Of a stretch of DNA of 64,000 bases, positions 17,670 to 25,825 are shown one piece after another. A model generated the notes under the pieces. That model was not told where the DNA came from. It made no database searches and worked only from the letters and a program-made list of their open reading frames with translations. The translations under genes and the position numbers were made by a program. Source of the DNA: Natrinema sp. HArc-T2 (GTDB lineage Archaea; Halobacteriota; Halobacteria; Halobacteriales; Natrialbaceae). The DNA lies in assembly GCF_041821085.1 (NCBI RefSeq), contig NZ_JBGUAZ010000001.1:372001-436000 (forward strand). The letters run 5' to 3'. Each line of letters opens with the position of its first letter. Position 1 is the stretch's first letter.

Positions 17670-18902
17670 ATGAGTACACCTGACGAATCCACGCCCGCGT
17701 CGGTGGCTGGCTTCGACGACGAAGCCGTCCTCCTGATCGGCCACGGCTCCAGACGCGAGAAGTCGAACGAACAGGTCCGCGAACTGGCCGCCGGACTCGA
17801 GTCACGACTGGGAATCCCGGTCGACGCCGCGTTCCTCGAACTCGCGGAGCCGTCGATCGAAGAGGCCTTCGCGGGACTTGCACCCGTCGCCGATCGGGTG
17901 ACCGTCGTCCACTGCTCGCTCTTTGCTGCGAGCCACGTCAAAAACGACGTACCGCTGGCGATCGAGCAGGCCCGCGCCGAACACGACATCGCGATCGACA
18001 ACGGCGCCCATCTGGGAGTCCATCCCGCCATCCTGGATCTGCTGGACGATCGCGCCGCCGAAGTCGAAGCGCAACTGGGCGTCGATCGCGCTGAGGACGA
18101 TGTCGCCGTCGTCGTCTGTGGCCGCGGCTCGAGCGATCCGGACGCGAACGGCGACGTCCACAAGCTGGCCCGCTTGCTGTTCGAGGGCCGGGACTTCGAC
18201 CGCGCCGAGGCGACGTTCATCGGCGTGACCGAGCCGACGCTCGAGGACACCCTCCACGGGCTCTCGAAACACCGGCCCGACGCGGTCGTCGTGCTCCCCT
18301 ATATGCTCGGCGACGGCGTCCTGACCCAGCGGGTCCGCGACTGGACTGCGGAGTTCGACGAGGACTACCCCTACGTCGACGCGCTGGCCGGCGACCCGCT
18401 CGGGACGGACTCGCGGCTGCTCGATGTCTTCGCCGACCGTTGGCAGGAGGCGCGGTCGGGCAGCGTCGAGATGTCCTGTGATACGTGCAAGTACAAGGTC
18501 GACCTCGAGGGCTACGAGGAAGACGTCGGCGGCGCACGCGCCATGTTGCGTGCGCTGGCCCACCAGGAGGCCCACGCCGACCGCGAGGATATCGACGACG
18601 AACCTCACAGTCACGACGCACCCGAGAAACACGTCGCGGTCTGTACCAACCAGACCTGCGCGAAGATGGGCTCGCCGGCAGTCCTCGAGCGCCTCCGTCA
18701 GGAGGTACGCGACTCCGAACATTGCGACGCCCGGATCACGCGCTCGTCTTGTTTGGGACGGTGTGGCGACGGGCCGATGGTCGCGGTCTACCCCGACGGG
18801 ATCTGGTACGGCGGCGTCGAATCCGGCGACGCCGAACGGATCGTCGCCGACCACCTCGACCGGGATCGCATCGTCAGCGACCTCGTCGATCAGACGCTGT
18901 AG
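17670..18902 (+). CDS. cbiX: Sirohydrochlorin cobaltochelatase CbiX fused to a [2Fe-2S] ferredoxin-like domain
   Basis: A 410-residue protein. Residues about 18-265 are two CbiX halves: the first keeps the metal-site His (LLIGHGSRREKSNEQ, H25), while in the second the equivalent is CGRGSSDPDANGDV with Arg. A CDTCKYK motif follows (C270, C273), which may hold metal. The C-terminal 85 residues are a thioredoxin-fold [2Fe-2S] ferredoxin with C325, C330, C361 and C365 (CTNQTC and SSCLGRCGDGP). It inserts cobalt into sirohydrochlorin early in the anaerobic-type route. Fusion and operon position suggest redox coupling of cobalt insertion; that is inference. Confidence 0.9.
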   Translation: MSTPDESTPASVAGFDDEAVLLIGHGSRREKSNEQVRELAAGLESRLGIPVDAAFLELAEPSIEEAFAGLAPVADRVTVVHCSLFAASHVKNDVPLAIEQARAEHDIAIDNGAHLGVHPAILDLLDDRAAEVEAQLGVDRAEDDVAVVVCGRGSSDPDANGDVHKLARLLFEGRDFDRAEATFIGVTEPTLEDTLHGLSKHRPDAVVVLPYMLGDGVLTQRVRDWTAEFDEDYPYVDALAGDPLGTDSRLLDVFADRWQEARSGSVEMSCDTCKYKVDLEGYEEDVGGARAMLRALAHQEAHADREDIDDEPHSHDAPEKHVAVCTNQTCAKMGSPAVLERLRQEVRDSEHCDARITRSSCLGRCGDGPMVAVYPDGIWYGGVESGDAERIVADHLDRDRIVSDLVDQTL

Positions 18903-18956
18903 CAAAGCTGCACCGACTAACGAGACGATACACGATTCCAACACTACTATTCAACC

Positions 18957-19328
18957 ATGAGCTGCCACGAAATCGAAGCACTACGACTCGGACTGATGAA
19001 CGTCCTCGGCGTCGGGGACGACAGCGCCCGCGAGCACGCGGAGAAAGAACTCGAAGGCCACCTCGAGGGCCCGATTCAGGGCCTCGTGGAGGCCGACAGC
19101 CTCACCGAACTGCAGCGCCACCTCGACGCGGCGCTGGTCGACTTAGAGGAGGAGGTCGCCACGATGGACAGCGCCGACCCGGAATACGATTACACGCGAG
19201 GGCGACTGCTGGCGGTTCGTGACGCCGAGCGAGCGGTCGGGCGGCTGGCCACGCAGGGCGAGAGCATCGTCGAGGGGCTCGGCGATGCCCACGACACCCT
19301 CCACGAGACGTTCCCGGTCGAGGAGTGA
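18957..19328 (+). CDS. DUF3209 family protein
   Basis: A 123-residue acidic, all-helical protein starting MSCHEIEALRLGLMNVLGVG. Composition and motif (CHEIEALRLGLMNVLG, then EHAEKELEG) match DUF3209, a haloarchaeal family that I recall accompanying cobalamin genes. The N-terminal C3-H4-E5 could bind a metal. No activity is known; a helical adaptor or metal carrier for the corrin pathway is speculation from context. It starts 54 bases after cbiX and its stop lies 3 bases before the next gene. Confidence 0.82.
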   Translation: MSCHEIEALRLGLMNVLGVGDDSAREHAEKELEGHLEGPIQGLVEADSLTELQRHLDAALVDLEEEVATMDSADPEYDYTRGRLLAVRDAERAVGRLATQGESIVEGLGDAHDTLHETFPVEE

Positions 19329-19331
19329 ACG

Positions 19332-20606
19332 ATGGCTGAACCTGTACCCGACCACGACAGCGGGATCGATTTCCGACAGGTACCGCTCGGCGAGATCGAG
19401 CCGGCGCGGAGCCGGCACATGTGGACCCGATCCGCGGTCGGCGTCGCCGAGTCGGGCGACCTTGCCGTCACCGGCGAGTGGGACGGCACCGTCACTGCCC
19501 GCGACATCGATTCACTCGAGACCCGCTGGACAGTCGACCATCCCGACCACGCGGTCGGCATCGCGTCGCTCGAGGCTGACGAGACGATCGCCGTCGCCGG
19601 CCGCGGCGACACCGGAACGATCGCGGCCTACGACGCCGAGACGGGCGAGCAGCGCTGGCGCTACGACACCGTCGACGACGTCGGCGAGGCGGTCAAAGAC
19701 ACCGTCTTCTATCTGCCCTACGTCGTCGCGCTCGAGACTGGAACGGACGCCGACGGAAACGAGCGGCTCTATGCTGCTGCGCGACGCTACGAGCGCGACG
19801 GTGAGACGCGACAGTGGCACAGCACGGTCTACGCGTTCGACACCGACGGCGAGATCTGCTGGACCTACGAGACTGACGCCTCACCGATCGCGCTCGATCT
19901 CGCCGCCGACGGCGAGCGCCTCGCGGTGGGCTACAACCGCTGTATGGGCGATCACGACACTGGGCTCGTCGTCCTCGAGGCCAATGCGGGCAAGCTCGCG
20001 TGGACCTGGGATCCTGGTACAGACGGCGACCGTCGCGTCGGCGATGTCTCCTTTGACGGGGAGACGATCGCTGTCTCGAGCCACGGCGACAAACGCGGTT
20101 ACCTGCTCGGTCCCGCCGGTGCTGAGCGCTGGCACGTCGACCTCGCTGTCGAGACCGAGATCGACGGAGAGACGCTCTATGCCTATCCGAACCACGCCTA
20201 CGCGAACGACGGGCGGGTGGCGTTCGTGACGGGCAACACCTACGCGGCAGAGAGTCGCGAAACGGAGAGCCGGCATCCGAACGAACACCGGGTCGCCGCG
20301 TTCGACGCCGACGGCGACCTCGTGTGGGACGAGACGGTTCGCGGGTTCGTCCACGGGCTGGCCACCGACGGCGATCGCCTCGTTGCGCCCTGTGCTCAGA
20401 ACTTCCGGGTTCGCGATCCCGACACCCACGCCGTTCGCTGGTTCGATCTCGAGTCCGGCGCGGACGGCTGTGAACGCATCGATGGAATCGCCACTGCGGC
20501 TGCCGTCGCCGACGATACCGTCGCTGCGATCGAGGAACCTGTGACGTATCACGACGAGGGCGAGACGCGTGGCGCGTACGCGCTTCGTGTCGGCTCGCTC
20601 GAGTAG
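19332..20606 (+). CDS. PQQ/BamB-like beta-propeller protein
   Basis: A 424-residue protein built of repeated blades. GTVTARDIDSLETRWTVD, GTIAAYDAETGEQRWRYD, STVYAFDTDGEICWTYE, and later HRVAAFDADGDLVWDETV show the A-x-D-xx-(T/D)G-xx-RW signature of quinoprotein/BamB-type propellers. There is no signal peptide, so it is probably cytoplasmic. It is the last gene of the cobalamin run, 3 bases after DUF3209. I recall a similar position in other haloarchaeal cobalamin clusters. Propellers of this kind are often scaffolds; a cofactor-binding role is not shown. Confidence 0.8.
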   Translation: MAEPVPDHDSGIDFRQVPLGEIEPARSRHMWTRSAVGVAESGDLAVTGEWDGTVTARDIDSLETRWTVDHPDHAVGIASLEADETIAVAGRGDTGTIAAYDAETGEQRWRYDTVDDVGEAVKDTVFYLPYVVALETGTDADGNERLYAAARRYERDGETRQWHSTVYAFDTDGEICWTYETDASPIALDLAADGERLAVGYNRCMGDHDTGLVVLEANAGKLAWTWDPGTDGDRRVGDVSFDGETIAVSSHGDKRGYLLGPAGAERWHVDLAVETEIDGETLYAYPNHAYANDGRVAFVTGNTYAAESRETESRHPNEHRVAAFDADGDLVWDETVRGFVHGLATDGDRLVAPCAQNFRVRDPDTHAVRWFDLESGADGCERIDGIATAAAVADDTVAAIEEPVTYHDEGETRGAYALRVGSLE

Positions 20607-20709
20607 TGTCAATTGGGGTTTCGAGAGCGGTTTCTGCCACGCTGTGCCGACTAGTCGCATACGCAAGGCCAACCGCCACAACGCTTAGGGCCCTCTGCTT
20701 TTCTGTATA

Positions 20710-21654
20710 ATGACCGATGAGTTCGCACATAACGGACTCGAGGAATGCTCGTATTCAGAGCGGGGCGAGCATTCCTCGAGCCGCCCCGACGGTGCCGTGC
20801 ATGCAGCAGGGCCGCCACGCCGAGTATTGACTGACGGCGGACAGGCGGAGATGGAAGAATCGGAAGACGAAACGGCCGACAGTGATGCCGAGGGAGAAGC
20901 CGAAGAAGCACCCGAAAACGAAGAAACCGAGGGCGAAGGCAAGGAAGAGGGAGAAGAGCCGGAAGTAGAGCAATCGCAAGCAGAAGAGGAGACAGAGGAA
21001 GAAGCAGAGGAAGCGGAAGAGGAGACAGCGGAAGCGGAAGAGGAGACAGCGGAAGAGGCAGAAGAAGCGGAAGCGGAAGAGGAGACAGCGGAAGAGGCAG
21101 AAGAAGCGGAAGCAGAAGAAGACGAATACCACGTCGAAGACGCCGACGACGTCTATCAGGACGATGAGGTTGCAGGTGTCCTCCATCTCGACCTCGACGG
21201 CCTGTTCCTCGATTTGCTCGGCCTCGAGGTGAACCTGAACCCGGTCACGCTCGACGTCTCGGCGCGACCGGGTGAGAACAACCTGCTCGGGAACCTCCTT
21301 GCAGCGGTCTCGGGACTCTTCGACGGGTCCGGAGGCATGCTCGAGAAGGCGGAATCGCTGCTGAGTAAGCCAGGTAAACTCTTCGACGCTCTGTTCGGGG
21401 GTGGTGCGGACGGTGAGACGGAAGACGAGGACGCAGAATCGGGCGAGGGTGACGACTCCCCCGGTCGCATCTCCAGAGCGATCGGCTGGCTCAAAGAGAA
21501 GGTGGCCGCGCTCGTGCCTAGCTTCCCCACCGAGGAGGTCGTGGCAGCGATCGTCAGTGAAGTGATCGAACAGTTAGTCGAGCGACTCGAGCCCGAACAA
21601 CCCGAAGAGACCAGCGAACAGAGGGAGCCGTCACAGGCGGAGGCAACAGCATGA
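20710..21654 (+). CDS. Acidic protein 1 of unknown four-gene cluster (Glu/Ala-repeat and hydrophobic LG/LN core)
   Basis: A 314-residue protein of no known function. Residues 1-47 include a GAVHAAGPPRRVLTDGG stretch. Residues 48-145 are almost pure Glu/Ala/Thr, with a 39-bp tandem DNA repeat. Residues about 156-215 are a well-ordered hydrophobic core (LHLDLDGLFLDLLGLEVN, then LDVSARPGENNLLGNLLAAV) that recalls an (LG/LN)-rich conserved region in uncharacterised bacterial proteins. Amphipathic C-terminal helices follow. CTTA at 20684 is 26 bases before this ATG and supports the start; an ATG at 20851 (MEESEDETAD) is the alternative, which would leave the hairpin at 20737-20780 in a leader. It overlaps the next gene as ATGA. 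Confidence 0.72.
   Translation: MTDEFAHNGLEECSYSERGEHSSSRPDGAVHAAGPPRRVLTDGGQAEMEESEDETADSDAEGEAEEAPENEETEGEGKEEGEEPEVEQSQAEEETEEEAEEAEEETAEAEEETAEEAEEAEAEEETAEEAEEAEAEEDEYHVEDADDVYQDDEVAGVLHLDLDGLFLDLLGLEVNLNPVTLDVSARPGENNLLGNLLAAVSGLFDGSGGMLEKAESLLSKPGKLFDALFGGGADGETEDEDAESGEGDDSPGRISRAIGWLKEKVAALVPSFPTEEVVAAIVSEVIEQLVERLEPEQPEETSEQREPSQAEATA
20737..20780. repeat. 15-bp perfect inverted repeat near the start of the acidic cluster
   Basis: CTCGAGGAATGCTCG at 20737-20751 and its exact reverse complement at 20766-20780 enclose a 14-base loop. In the long reading it lies within codons 10-24 of acidic protein 1; in the short reading it is in the 5' leader. An alternative pairing of CGGGGC and GCCCCG just downstream competes with it, a layout seen in RNA switches. 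It may equally be a DNA operator. Confidence 0.55.
21007..21120 (+). repeat. 39-bp tandem repeat coding for Glu/Ala-rich units
   Basis: Two perfect 39-base copies at 21028-21066 and 21067-21105, with partial copies on both sides. The unit begins GCGGAAGCGGAAGAGGAG and encodes 13 residues (AEAEEETAEEAEE). Exact copies mean recent slippage, and length variation between strains is likely. Confidence 0.75.
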
Positions 21655-22127
21655 GCGATAGCACACTGACCCAGCGGATCGATACCGAGAAGATTAGCGA
21701 CAACGTCGACGTCGACGAACTGGTCGAAGGAACCCAGTGGGAAGACGAAATCGACGGGGACAAGCCGCTCGGCGAAGCGCTGGGCGGGCAGATCGGCGCG
21801 ATCCTCGGGCGGGCAATCGGCGAATCCCTCGGACGGACGATCGGGGACATGGTCGTTGACGAACTACTCAGTTCCGGCGAGGAGGAAGGGAAAGCGGACG
21901 TGGCTGAGGAACCCGCCGAGGAAGGCGACGAACCCGCTGAGGAGGACGAAACCGGTGAAGAGTCCGCCGAGGAAGGCGACGAAGAAACCGAGGCCGAGGG
22001 AGCAGGCGAAAGCGACGGCGATGAATCCGAGGACGACACCGAGACAGAAGGTGACTCCGAGTCGGACACGAAGGACAATGAATCAGCGGACGAAGAACCG
22101 GGGCAATCGACCGAAGCCGAAGAGTAA
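21651..22127 (+). CDS. Acidic glycine-zipper protein 2 of unknown cluster
   Basis: A 158-residue protein. After 40 ordinary acidic residues come seven consecutive Gly-x-x-hydrophobic tetrads at residues 41-68 (GEAL, GGQI, GAIL, GRAI, GESL, GRTI, GDMV), a textbook glycine zipper able to form close helix packing or insert into membranes. Residues 75-158 are a disordered Glu/Asp/Ser/Thr tail. No signal peptide is present. It overlaps acidic protein 1 by 4 bases and is followed 53 bases later by a gene with the same zipper, so the products likely assemble together. The activity is unknown. Confidence 0.75.
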   Translation: MSDSTLTQRIDTEKISDNVDVDELVEGTQWEDEIDGDKPLGEALGGQIGAILGRAIGESLGRTIGDMVVDELLSSGEEEGKADVAEEPAEEGDEPAEEDETGEESAEEGDEETEAEGAGESDGDESEDDTETEGDSESDTKDNESADEEPGQSTEAEE

Positions 22128-22180
22128 CACTGTGACACGGAAAAATAACGTGCTCCACGGATCCGATCGGGGTGGTTATC

Positions 22181-23023
22181 ATGAGTGAGGCATCCGGACT
22201 GAAGGGAATGGTAGCTGATGAGGTCAGCAACCAGCTCGATGTCGCCGATATGCTCGGTGATGGGAGTATCGAAGACAGCATCGACGGCGGCGAAGTCGGC
22301 GCTGCGGTCGGTCGCCAGTTCGGTGAGCAGTTCGGACGTGATGTCGGTGAGTCGGTCGGCCGAGCAGTCCACGAGACGATCGCCGCGGGCGTCGACGAAG
22401 GAAAGGAACTCGGTGAGATCCAGACAGACCTCTCGACGGCGATTCAAAACGCCCTCCGGGAGTCGTTCTCGGAGATCGAAGGCCGCGATTCGCTCGAGTC
22501 GATGGCCAAAGGCGTCACCGATGGGAGTAGCGTCGAGGGACTTCTAGACGGCATCGGTGGTGATGAGAGTGAGAAGCAGGCTGAACCACAGGCTGAGGAA
22601 CCAGCGGAGGAAGCGGAAGATCAGGAAAACGAAGGCGGAGAGAGTGACGAAACGGACGCCAAAGCGGTGGTGAAAGAAGCTGCCGGCAAAGCAGGGGACT
22701 CAGTCGAGAACGCTGCCAGCAACGCGAAAGAGACGGTCGAAAGCGTTGCTGGCGAATCCGGGGCGACCGATGAAGCCGACTCGTCCGGAGATGGCGAGGA
22801 CGAGTCGTCAAGCGCGGATCTCGAGGACCTTCGGAAGGACACGCTCGAGGACTTCCTCGGCGTGATGTCCTACGACGACCTGCAGTCGGTCGCGAAAGAC
22901 GTCGGCGTAAAGGCGAACCTCAGCCGTGAGGAGATGACCGACGAGATTATCGAGACGGTGACGGACGATGAACCGGACGCGGACTCGAGCGAGGAGTCAG
23001 AAACGGAGGCGGAAGCCGAGTGA
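22181..23023 (+). CDS. Acidic glycine-zipper protein 3 with a C-terminal SAP/Rho-N-like helical motif
   Basis: A 280-residue protein. Residues 36-63 contain seven GxxF/V tetrads (GGEV, GAAV, GRQF, GEQF, GRDV, GESV, GRAV), matching the zipper of the preceding gene. A helical segment (residues 64-130) and a long acidic linker follow. Residues about 214-258 (LEDLRKDTLEDFLGVMSYDD then LQSVAKDVGVKANLSREEM) have the helix-turn-helix spacing of SAP or Rho-N domains, which bind nucleic acid; that assignment is tentative. The ATG at 22181 has GGGGTGG nine bases before it and is preferred over the GTG at 22172. Confidence 0.75.
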   Translation: MSEASGLKGMVADEVSNQLDVADMLGDGSIEDSIDGGEVGAAVGRQFGEQFGRDVGESVGRAVHETIAAGVDEGKELGEIQTDLSTAIQNALRESFSEIEGRDSLESMAKGVTDGSSVEGLLDGIGGDESEKQAEPQAEEPAEEAEDQENEGGESDETDAKAVVKEAAGKAGDSVENAASNAKETVESVAGESGATDEADSSGDGEDESSSADLEDLRKDTLEDFLGVMSYDDLQSVAKDVGVKANLSREEMTDEIIETVTDDEPDADSSEESETEAEAE

Positions 23024-23102
23024 TCGACTCAAACGCACTGCTCTCGCTTCGAACGGGGGACGGATGACACAACCAGCGGCGCGCTGAGAGCGAGGGCCAT
23101 CC

Positions 23103-23894
23103 ATGAGTGACTCGCAACTACACGACCGGGTGCACGAGATACTGACCGAGGCCGACACATCAAGTGTCTCGCTCGTCGCCGGCGATGGTGACGACGAGTC
23201 GACCGAGACGGACCTGCTCGAGACTGCAACCGAGGCGAGCGACCTCCTCGAGTCGACCAACCTCGACGAGTTGCTTGCCGCAGTCGGGCTGGACACGCTC
23301 GCAGATGGAACCGAACCGGATTCGATTCCCGAGGCTATCGCCCGGGGTGAGCAGGAGAACGTGGCGGCCCTCCAGCGGCTGCTCCACCTCGCGAAACTGG
23401 CCGACCGGGCCGACGATGGGAGTCTCGAGGGAGCAGTCGGCGACCTTCAGGAAGCGATCGACGAACGGACGGGATCGGCTACCGAAGACGAGGACCGCAA
23501 TGCCGACAGGGATCGGCTGGACGACGAGTCGGCGACCGCCGAGAGCGGCGATACAGACGAGACTGACGCCGATCACGAGGATCGCCTGCGATCGTCGCTT
23601 CAGTCCTCGTTTGAACAGTTCGGCGACGACCTCCAGCAACTCAGAGCACGACTCGGGACGGCAAGTGCTGGCACATCGAGTCGTGGGGCTGCTGACGATG
23701 CTCAGTCCGATGCAGACGACGCTGAAACTGCGGGCGACGAGGGCCTCGTGGAGAGCGGACTCAGTAGCAATCAGGACTACGGGACGGCGTCAGGTGGTCC
23801 GACGCGCTGCTCGACGATGGCACCGCCGCCGTCCCGGCGAGCGGACATGAAAGGTCCCGTCAGGCACTCGACGGTGCCGGACAAACAGGGATAG
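23103..23894 (+). CDS. Acidic protein 4 of unknown cluster with a conserved-looking basic C-terminal tail
   Basis: A 263-residue protein starting MSDSQLHDRVHEILTEADTS. Residues 1-125 are predicted helical and acidic, with an ordered ELLAAVGLDTLADG and a leucine-rich helix (VAALQRLLHLAKLADRA). Residues 125-225 are acidic linker with one helix. The last 30 residues reverse character: RCSTMAPPPSRRADMKG then RHSTVPDKQG, basic and proline-rich, with the RxST(M/V)xP motif twice. Such a sharply different tail usually marks an interaction or anchoring signal. It starts 79 bases after protein 3 in the same direction. No function is recognised. Confidence 0.72.
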   Translation: MSDSQLHDRVHEILTEADTSSVSLVAGDGDDESTETDLLETATEASDLLESTNLDELLAAVGLDTLADGTEPDSIPEAIARGEQENVAALQRLLHLAKLADRADDGSLEGAVGDLQEAIDERTGSATEDEDRNADRDRLDDESATAESGDTDETDADHEDRLRSSLQSSFEQFGDDLQQLRARLGTASAGTSSRGAADDAQSDADDAETAGDEGLVESGLSSNQDYGTASGGPTRCSTMAPPPSRRADMKGPVRHSTVPDKQG

Positions 23895-24148
23895 TACGAG
23901 GTATCTCTCGGCTTCGCTCGAGCGCGTCGGGGTCGCGCCAGCCGACCCCCAAATCTCGACTGGGTGTCGTCGGGAGTGCGAGGCGGATCTCGGCGACCGG
24001 TGGATGCACCCCTCGAACCATCAAATGCCAGACACTTACCGAGTAGCACGGTCGGTGAACGTTCTAGAGCAGCGATAAGCGTAACCGAAAGCAGTTATAA
24101 TCTCGGTCGTATCGGCCATTCGAGCGTCCGACGTAACCACTGTCGCCC
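23895..24148. other. Intergenic gap between the acidic cluster and tupA
   Basis: About 290 bases separate the two transcription units. The first half is GC-rich with no credible ORF; the second half is AT-richer and leads into the tupA promoter. I see no RNA gene or mobile element. Confidence 0.4.
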
Positions 24149-24197
24149 AAACGTTTATTTACATCCGTTTCATCGTTATTCCCGACATGGAATATCG
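24149..24197 (+). promoter_or_regulatory. tupA promoter with near-palindrome over the start codon
   Basis: AACGTTTATTTAC around 24149-24161 is a strong haloarchaeal TATA element 26-35 bases before the ATG at 24187. The near-perfect inverted repeat CGTTATTCC-CGACAT-GGAATATCG (24174-24197, 8 of 9 pairs) straddles the start codon. The ModE-like regulator encoded at 26734 is an obvious candidate to bind it; this is inference. Confidence 0.45.
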
Positions 24198-25110
24198 ACG
24201 ACGAGCCTTCTTAGGGGCAGGTGCAACTGGGATTGCTGCGGCCATTGCGGGCTGTCTGAACAGCAGGAACGACAGCAGCGAGGCGTCGATCGCTGGAGCG
24301 GAACTCGCGCTTGCGACGACCACGAGTACGTACGATACGGGACTGCTCGACGAGATCAACGCTGCGTTTCAGGAGCGGTTCGGGGTGCAGGTCGCGGCAA
24401 ACGCACAAGGGACGGGGCAAGCGATCCAGTCCGCCCGCGACGGAAACGCCGACGTGATCCTCGTCCACGCACGCTCACAAGAGGACGAGTTCATGCGGGA
24501 TGGCTACGGGGTCAACCGGCGGGACCTGATGTTCAACGACTTCGTGGTCGTCGGGCCGAGCGACGATCCGGCAGGCGTGGGCGACACCGACCAGGCGACG
24601 ACCGCCTTCGAGGCTATCGCCGACGCACAAGCGACGTTTGCCTCCCGCGGCGACGACTCGGGGACGCACACGAAAGAACAAGTGATCTGGTCCGAAGCCG
24701 GCATCGAACCAAGCGGCGAGTGGTACCAGGAAACCGGCAGCGGCATGGGGAATACGTTGACTGTCGCGGACGAATCGAGCGCGTATACGCTCGCTGACCG
24801 GGGCACCTACCTCTCGATGCAGGATAACATCGACCTCGAGATCCTGCTTCAGGGCCCGATCGAGGGCGGACCGGAACTGCTCTCGAACCCCTACGGGATC
24901 ATGGCAGTCAACCCGGAGATCCACGACAACGTCAACTACCAGCTTGCGATGGCCTACATCGGATTCTTTACGAGTCCCGAGGGCCAGCAGCTCATCGGGG
25001 ACTACACCGCGAACGGCCAACAGCTGTTCTTCCCCGAGGCGCTGGCGGAGGACCCGGACTTCCAGCAGTACGTCCCCGAGGGATGGCAGCCGGATTCGGG
25101 CGGCGAGTGA
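24187..25110 (+). CDS. tupA: Tungstate/molybdate-type ABC transporter substrate-binding lipoprotein TupA
   Basis: A 307-residue extracellular binding protein. The N-terminus has a Tat twin-arginine-like RRRAFLG (residues 4-10) and a lipobox IAGC with C23, so it is exported folded and lipid-anchored. The mature part starts [19 protein letters not shown], the TupA/PBP signature for oxyanion binding; [12 protein letters not shown] is another TupA motif contributing ligand-binding Ser/Thr. [20 protein letters not shown] is also family-typical. It is first in tupABC, with a ModE-like gene downstream, so tungstate (or molybdate) is the likely cargo. Confidence 0.9.
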
Positions 25111-25153
25111 TCGCCGCGTTCACAGACCAGCCACACAGACGGAACACCAACTG

Positions 25154-25825
25154 ATGCCATTCGAGTTGATCGCCGAACCGAACTATCTCCGGAGTGTCAT
25201 TCGCGTCTCGCTGATGGTGAGTCTGACCGCCATCTTCGTGAGTACGCTGGTGAGCCTGCCGATCGCGTTCCTCATCGGCTTCGCCGACTTCCCCGGTAAG
25301 CGCCTCGTGACGGCGATCATCAATACGGGAATGGGCTTTCCAAGCGTCGCCGTTGGACTGCTCGTCCTGCTATTTATTTCGAGTGACGGCCCGCTCGGTT
25401 CGCTTGACCTCGTCTACACGCCGGAAGCGATGATCATCTCGCAGTGTATTCTCGCCGCGCCAGTGATTACGGGCGTCGCGCTCTCGGCAGTCGAGAGCGT
25501 CGACGACGCCGTTCGCGATGCGGCCTACGGCGTCGGCGGAACTCGGACCGACGTTGCCCTCATAACACTCAAAGAGGCACGCTACGGCGTTATAACCGGG
25601 ATCCTCGCCGGCTTCGGACGGGCGATCAGCGAAGTCGGGTCAGTCCTCATCGTCGGCGGGAACATCGCCTACGCCGACGGCACCTCGAAGACCCGAACCA
25701 TCACGACCGCGATCACGTTCGAGACGCGCCGAGGCGAGTTCGAGACGGCGCTGGCGCTCGGTGCCATCTTGATCGTCCTCGTCTTGCTCGTCAATGGAAT
25801 CGTCATGCGACTCGGTGGTCGATAA
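25154..25825 (+). CDS. tupB: Tungstate-type ABC transporter permease TupB
   Basis: A 223-residue inner permease with about five membrane helices. The EAA coupling loop is visible as [20 protein letters not shown] followed by [18 protein letters not shown]. The start [20 protein letters not shown] at 25154 is the only one consistent with family length; longer frames run into tupA. It lies 43 bases after tupA and 64 before tupC. It would form the membrane channel with TupC as energiser. Confidence 0.9.

Follow-up and report, generated by a model that had tools for sequence, protein, structure and literature searches.

In Halobacterium, gas vesicles become very long when gvpI is deleted and large and fragile when gvpC is deleted; GvpI forms a pair with GvpH (PMC4390858, PMC9501494). 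Many haloarchaeal gvp clusters are without gvpC and gvpDE, including those of Natrinema, Natrialba, Halopiger, Haladaptatus and Natronobacterium, and reviews leave unexplained that their hosts are Vac- (PMC4390858). In Nab. magadii, GvpI carries an N-terminal extension of more than 200 residues (PMC3403918). Here we describe a cassette of four genes, P1 to P4, in a 64,000-nucleotide stretch of the genome of Natrinema sp. HArc-T2 (the window; contig NZ_JBGUAZ010000001.1, positions 372,001 to 436,000 of the forward strand). The gvp genes of this genome lie outside the window on contig C5 and comprise gvpA-N-O and gvpF-G-H-I-J-K-L-M, without gvpC, gvpD or gvpE. Based on co-occurrence with gvp genes, contiguity with them in other lineages, joint loss and the homology of P4 to GvpI, we conclude that P1-P4 are almost certainly a gas-vesicle accessory module. 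The best overall explanation, which we consider probable but far from secure, is that the cassette is an unlinked second gas-vesicle locus in which P1-P3 would take over the action of GvpC on the shell and P4 would serve as a partner resembling GvpI.

All four genes are on the + strand: P1 (20710-21654, 314 amino acids), P2 (21651-22127, 158 amino acids), P3 (22181-23023, 280 amino acids, with an alternative GTG start at 22172 from which the same frame is open) and P4 (23103-23894, 263 amino acids). These coordinates bear out an earlier reading made from the letters alone (the sequence-only reading), which had seen four co-directional genes, the first two overlapping by the 4 bases ATGA and the others separated by 53 (P2-P3) and 79 bases (P3-P4). 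All four proteins are conserved throughout the genus and family, which argues that they are products of real genes. P4 has a match in 32 of 61 relatives of the window genome (G000), and nearly all congeners preserve the order P1-P2-P3-P4, mostly with a cobalamin cluster on one side and a tungstate transporter on the other. Because the order persists in other genera with unrelated flanks (L061, L063, L065 and L066), the four form one unit rather than chance neighbours, and a functional tie to the neighbouring cobalamin or tungstate genes is ruled out. For the set as a whole the genes stay together, as the sequence-only reading had supposed, rather than occurring as single, scattered homologues. 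Some families retain only P1/P2 or P1/P3, and there the pair lies inside or adjoining gvp clusters.

Across 292 haloarchaeal genomes, the P1 core and GvpA were found together in 95, P1 alone in 0, GvpA alone in 24 and neither in 173 (Fisher p 2e-54), so that P1 is present in about 80% (95/119) of the genomes of the class that have GvpA, although presence counts over these genomes are not independent of shared ancestry. For P3, 93 of 99 matches in this set fell in gvp+ genomes. Of the other six, one is a relic in G013 and five, in the gvp-negative G044, G046, G059, G081 and G243, were discounted as marginal or as matches to the acidic linker, without inspection of each locus. When the 61 relatives were searched for GvpA, the congeners without P4 (G005, G013 and G027) proved to be exactly those without GvpA. 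In these gvp-negative congeners the cassette is cleanly gone between PQQ and tup genes (G027), gone (G005), or reduced to broken pieces of P1 and P3 (G013). On a marker tree three separate cassette losses are needed, and the well-supported branches alone are compatible with one. Separately, the gvp-bearing congener G004 (L279) has P2-P4 but no detected P1, and its P4 tail is read in another frame; the cassette may be in decay here.

The non-independence of the presence counts is what favors the idea that there is no gas-vesicle link and that the co-occurrence merely reflects the shared ancestry of the sampled genomes. We give this idea next to no chance, as it is already contradicted by the absence of P1 from all 173 GvpA-negative genomes, by three losses in one genus that match gvp loss, by direct gvp linkage recurring in several families and by the relationship of P4 to GvpI. 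Joint loss in congeners, physical linkage and P4-GvpI homology are thus three lines of evidence beyond the ancestry-dependent counts.

The first clue to physical linkage was a distant P4 match at L064, which lies in a gas-vesicle cluster, in the gvpI position, beside P1- and P2-like genes. Hidden Markov model annotation of ~80 loci, for which the annotated pNRC100 cluster served as seed, revealed P1-P4 or subsets of them contiguous with gvp genes at L097 (P4-P3-P2-P1 adjoining gvpM), at L163, L170 and L184 (P1-P2-P3-P4 adjoining gvpO), at L064, L158, L169 and L178 (P1/P2 adjoining gvpO), at L095, L164 and L192 (P1 with a zipper protein inside the gvpF-M operon, between gvpG/H and gvpI), and throughout L174-L180 and at L183. 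The sequence-only reading had pictured the four proteins as parts of one structure, such as a cytoplasmic particle, a pore or an envelope-stress device. The linkage and co-occurrence favor the first of these, with the gas vesicle as the particle, and the pore and the stress device found no support. Between gvpO and P1 in the L064 cluster (L064:5779-6117) we also observed a gene for a 112-residue coiled-coil protein that contains CxxC pairs and has no above-cut-off family match.

P4 provides a homology link to the gvp system. Alignment of the P4 and GvpI families with hhalign gave a probability of 99.2% (E 2e-19, 241 columns), whereas control alignments of P4 to GvpC and to P3 stayed under 1%. 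The full length of P4 can be aligned with the long form of GvpI from gvpC-less clusters, and P4 shares its double STxP tail (CSTMAPPPSRRADMKGPVRHSTVP, 23808-23879, + strand), a motif present in 90 of 95 P4 and 52 of 77 GvpI proteins and in none of P1, P2, P3, GvpC, H, J, L or O, counted over overlapping loci so that not all of the proteins are independent. The double tail also occurs in Halobacterium GvpI (HSTMPP...SHSTVPK), which is basic, whereas P4 is acidic (pI ~4). Unlike GvpI, P4 lies outside the gvpF-M operon, following P3 rather than standing between gvpH and gvpJ, and it ends past its second STVP without the R[IL]YGxR box (RIYGRRF) found behind the GvpI tail. Because position and post-tail box differ and the genome has its own true gvpI (L088:9100-10014), P4 is, on profile alignment, a GvpI paralogue and not GvpI itself. 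This overturns, for P4, the suggestion that the cassette proteins are unlike anything known; P1-P3, as far as sequence comparison reaches, have no known Gvp relative and belong to no family above threshold.

GvpI itself differs in length between cluster types. It is short (113-149 amino acids) in GvpC-bearing clusters (L138-L144, L148 and L149) and long (~250-470 amino acids) in clusters without GvpC (L088-L107 and L145-L185), in agreement with the published extension of Nab. magadii GvpI. A lone GvpI-like gene was also seen away from the gvp clusters in the congener G022 (L067:8005-8799, contig C3).

We also compared the cassette with GvpC. The Pfam GvpC model PF01304 detected nothing in any genome, even GvpC-bearing ones, and was replaced by a haloarchaeal GvpC alignment. 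With this search (E <1e-10) GvpC was found in 13 of the same 292 genomes, and none was found in the window genome. Among gvp+ genomes, P1 and GvpC co-occurred in 1, P1 stood alone in 94, GvpC alone in 12 and neither was present in 12 (Fisher p 3e-9); in the sole genome where they occur together there are two gvp clusters, and GvpC belongs to the second. The distribution of the cassette agrees with the published gvpC/DE-less clusters of the genera listed above. Based on the near-exclusion of P1 and GvpC we infer a coat role, and consider it close to an even chance that P1-P3 replace GvpC as coat. The proposed coat proteins and GvpC are alike in being acidic, in having several helices and in their small C-terminal domain, but P1-P3 have no 38-40-residue repeats and no zinc finger and do not lie between gvpA and gvpN. 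Two further arrangements were observed among GvpC-like genes. In G034 a GvpC-like protein encoded between gvpA and gvpN (L092:11684-12934) has a SAP-like end (LDREELVARLMDVQYAKLKKAANGIGYDGNLNAATKDELVEFI) where other GvpC proteins have a zinc finger, and the congener G020 (L104 and L278) has two gvp clusters, the second of which includes a GvpC-like gene as well as short genes of the GvpI type.

The composition of the four proteins was in part as the sequence-only reading had described. It had called each of them extremely acidic, which fits P1, P2 and P3, whose Asp+Glu fractions (0.33, 0.39 and 0.29) are the top three among the open reading frames picked in the window (median 0.19), but not P4, which ranks ninth at 0.24. 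The hydrophobic core rich in LG and LN, which lies in P1, and the basic, proline-rich tail, which lies in P4, match its description, as do its two long glycine zippers, which fall in P2 and P3. Each of these has 7 Gly at spacing 4, a number reached in 0 of 5000 shuffles, and P1 and P4 have no such series. No segment of P1-P4 is of transmembrane-strength hydrophobicity (top 19-residue Kyte-Doolittle mean 1.5), searches of P1-P4 against Pfam, NCBIfam and PHROGs gave sub-threshold matches only, and an Rfam scan of 18900-25200 gave no match.

P2 and P3 share an N-terminal zipper domain (hhalign 99.4%, E 7e-22) and are, by this alignment, paralogues. The P2 zipper (residues 41-65; 21771-21845, + strand) is conserved in the alignment and followed by an acidic tail. 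In P3 the zipper (residues 36-60; 22286-22360, + strand) lies inside a 37-residue helix (residues 36-72) predicted by AlphaFold2 with a predicted local distance difference test (pLDDT) score mostly of ~83-94. The model also has a second helix, a disordered acidic linker and, predicted with confidence, an end domain of three helices (residues 211-262; 22811-22966, + strand; pLDDT ~80-92). The GxxxGxxxG periodicity is that of known glycine-zipper proteins (Pfam PF13488 and PF05433), but matches to these were sub-threshold (Gly-zipper_Omp PF13488: 13.8 bits for P2 against a cut-off of 25, best E 0.045 among P3 members) and, unlike such proteins, P2 and P3 lack both a signal peptide and a lipobox and place the zipper in a cytoplasmic acidic context.

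The acidic linker and small C-terminal domain (SYRELQSLAKDHDIKANLSREEMTDEL) occur in P3 and in several P2 homologues elsewhere. The predicted P3 end domain resembles the 3'hExo entry 4qoz_B (Z 6.4, root-mean-square deviation 2.1 over 55 residues), with further structural matches to the SAP domain 2rno, to Rho (1pv4) and to 4ric. Its predicted fold may be like those of SAP and Rho_N domains, but sequence scores fall under the curated cut-offs: Pfam Rho_N was found in 5 of 24 P3 members, all under cut-off (best E 0.0023), and SAP matches were also under cut-off. A Foldseek search with the P3 model returned nothing below E 0.001, the SAP-like tail being the sole recurring theme among weak matches. 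This domain, modelled with good confidence in P3 and borne as the same tail by several P2 homologues, raises the idea that P1-P4 organise vesicles in the cell, with the zippers clustering vesicles and the SAP/Rho_N-like tails tying them to DNA or RNA or regulating gvp expression. We regard this as rather improbable, given the sub-threshold sequence matches, the acidic context of the tail and the absence of such a domain from P1.

P1 has a conserved N-terminus ending in RRVLTDGG, followed by a long Glu-rich stretch, the hydrophobic LG/LN core (GVLHLDLDGLFLDLLGLEVNLNPVTLDVSARPGENNLLGNLLAAVSGLFDG, 21175-21327, + strand), which is conserved in the homologue alignment, and C-terminal helices. The AlphaFold2 model of the C-terminal half was of low confidence and too poor for use. 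The 50-residue core recurs in small secreted Chloroflexi proteins (LDLLGL...LLGNLL; L251:7692-8210, 172 amino acids, and L257:7662-8207, 181 amino acids) which, unlike P1, have a signal peptide and two cysteines and no acidic stretch. GvpA has no match in these Chloroflexi genomes, and no gvp genes lie near the core-protein genes. A tblastn search of plasmids with the P1 core gave no match, probably owing to the low-complexity filter.

Directly 5' of P1 lies a conserved element of ~29 bases (TCGCATACGCAAGGCCAACCGCCACAACG, 20655-20683, + strand), near-identical and in the same position in ~20 congeners, which can still be made out in five other genera. An exact copy of the core (GCATACGCAAGGCCAA) occurs in the genome solely upstream of P1, and the element would probably serve as a promoter or operator. 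The fused cluster L097 has two inverted copies of the TACGCAAG core of the element between gvpF and gvpA. Within the early P1 codons we also noted a perfect 15-base inverted repeat (CTCGAGGAATGCTCG ... CGAGCATTCCTCGAG) at 20737-20780.

In our preferred explanation, P1-P3 would attach to the outer face of the GvpA shell and, in species without GvpC, make it stiffer or set its size. The zipper helices of P2 and P3 may pair or oligomerise, the core and helices of P1 may contact the shell, and the acidic tails could keep the coated particle soluble at molar salt. P4, like GvpI, would limit vesicle growth by pairing with the coat proteins or with GvpH/GvpL. Several observations weigh against this explanation. 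P1-P3 are without GvpC-type repeats, and profile comparison gave only 0.1% for P3 against GvpC (0.3% for P4). With these models neither P1 nor GvpC is detected in 12 gvp+ genomes, which may mean that vesicles can do without a coat protein. The element upstream of P1, or a shared promoter motif, was sought before Natrinema gvpA and gvpF and was not found, so co-regulation of the cassette with the gvp genes gains no support from it. Species without gvpC are reported Vac- in the literature (PMC4390858). Finally, the presence of P1 in the accessory operon at L095, L192 and L164 suits an assembly factor equally well.

This last point leads to the main rival, in which P1-P4 are early assembly factors, acting in nucleation or as chaperones, that extend the accessory complex of GvpF-M proteins around GvpH/GvpI but do not end up in the finished vesicle. 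The paralogy of P4 to GvpI, itself an accessory protein, fits such a role, as does the P1-zipper pair between gvpG/H and gvpI, and long acidic disordered tails suit a chaperone of hydrophobic GvpA-type proteins. Near-exclusion with GvpC is, in turn, unexpected for a pure assembly role, and some genomes have a complete gvpF-M without P1, so the cassette is unneeded for the basic assembly set. We judge this rival unlikely, if the most serious of those considered.

A literature search, for the most part short of full texts, returned no title, abstract or passage describing the cassette, and an earlier description is possible. Our analysis identifies genes that travel with gvpC-less clusters, namely three families without an above-threshold match and a GvpI paralogue. 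We tentatively propose, at somewhat less than even odds, that gvpC-less haloarchaea build vesicles with a different outer coat of three unrecognised families, P1-P3, whose genes lie at a distance from the gvp cluster and whose partner is a GvpI paralogue. P1-P3 could supply new shell-binding proteins for engineered imaging gas vesicles. The gvp system can be divided among unlinked loci and lost jointly and, if our explanation is true, species listed as Vac- may make vesicles once the second locus is included or expressed.

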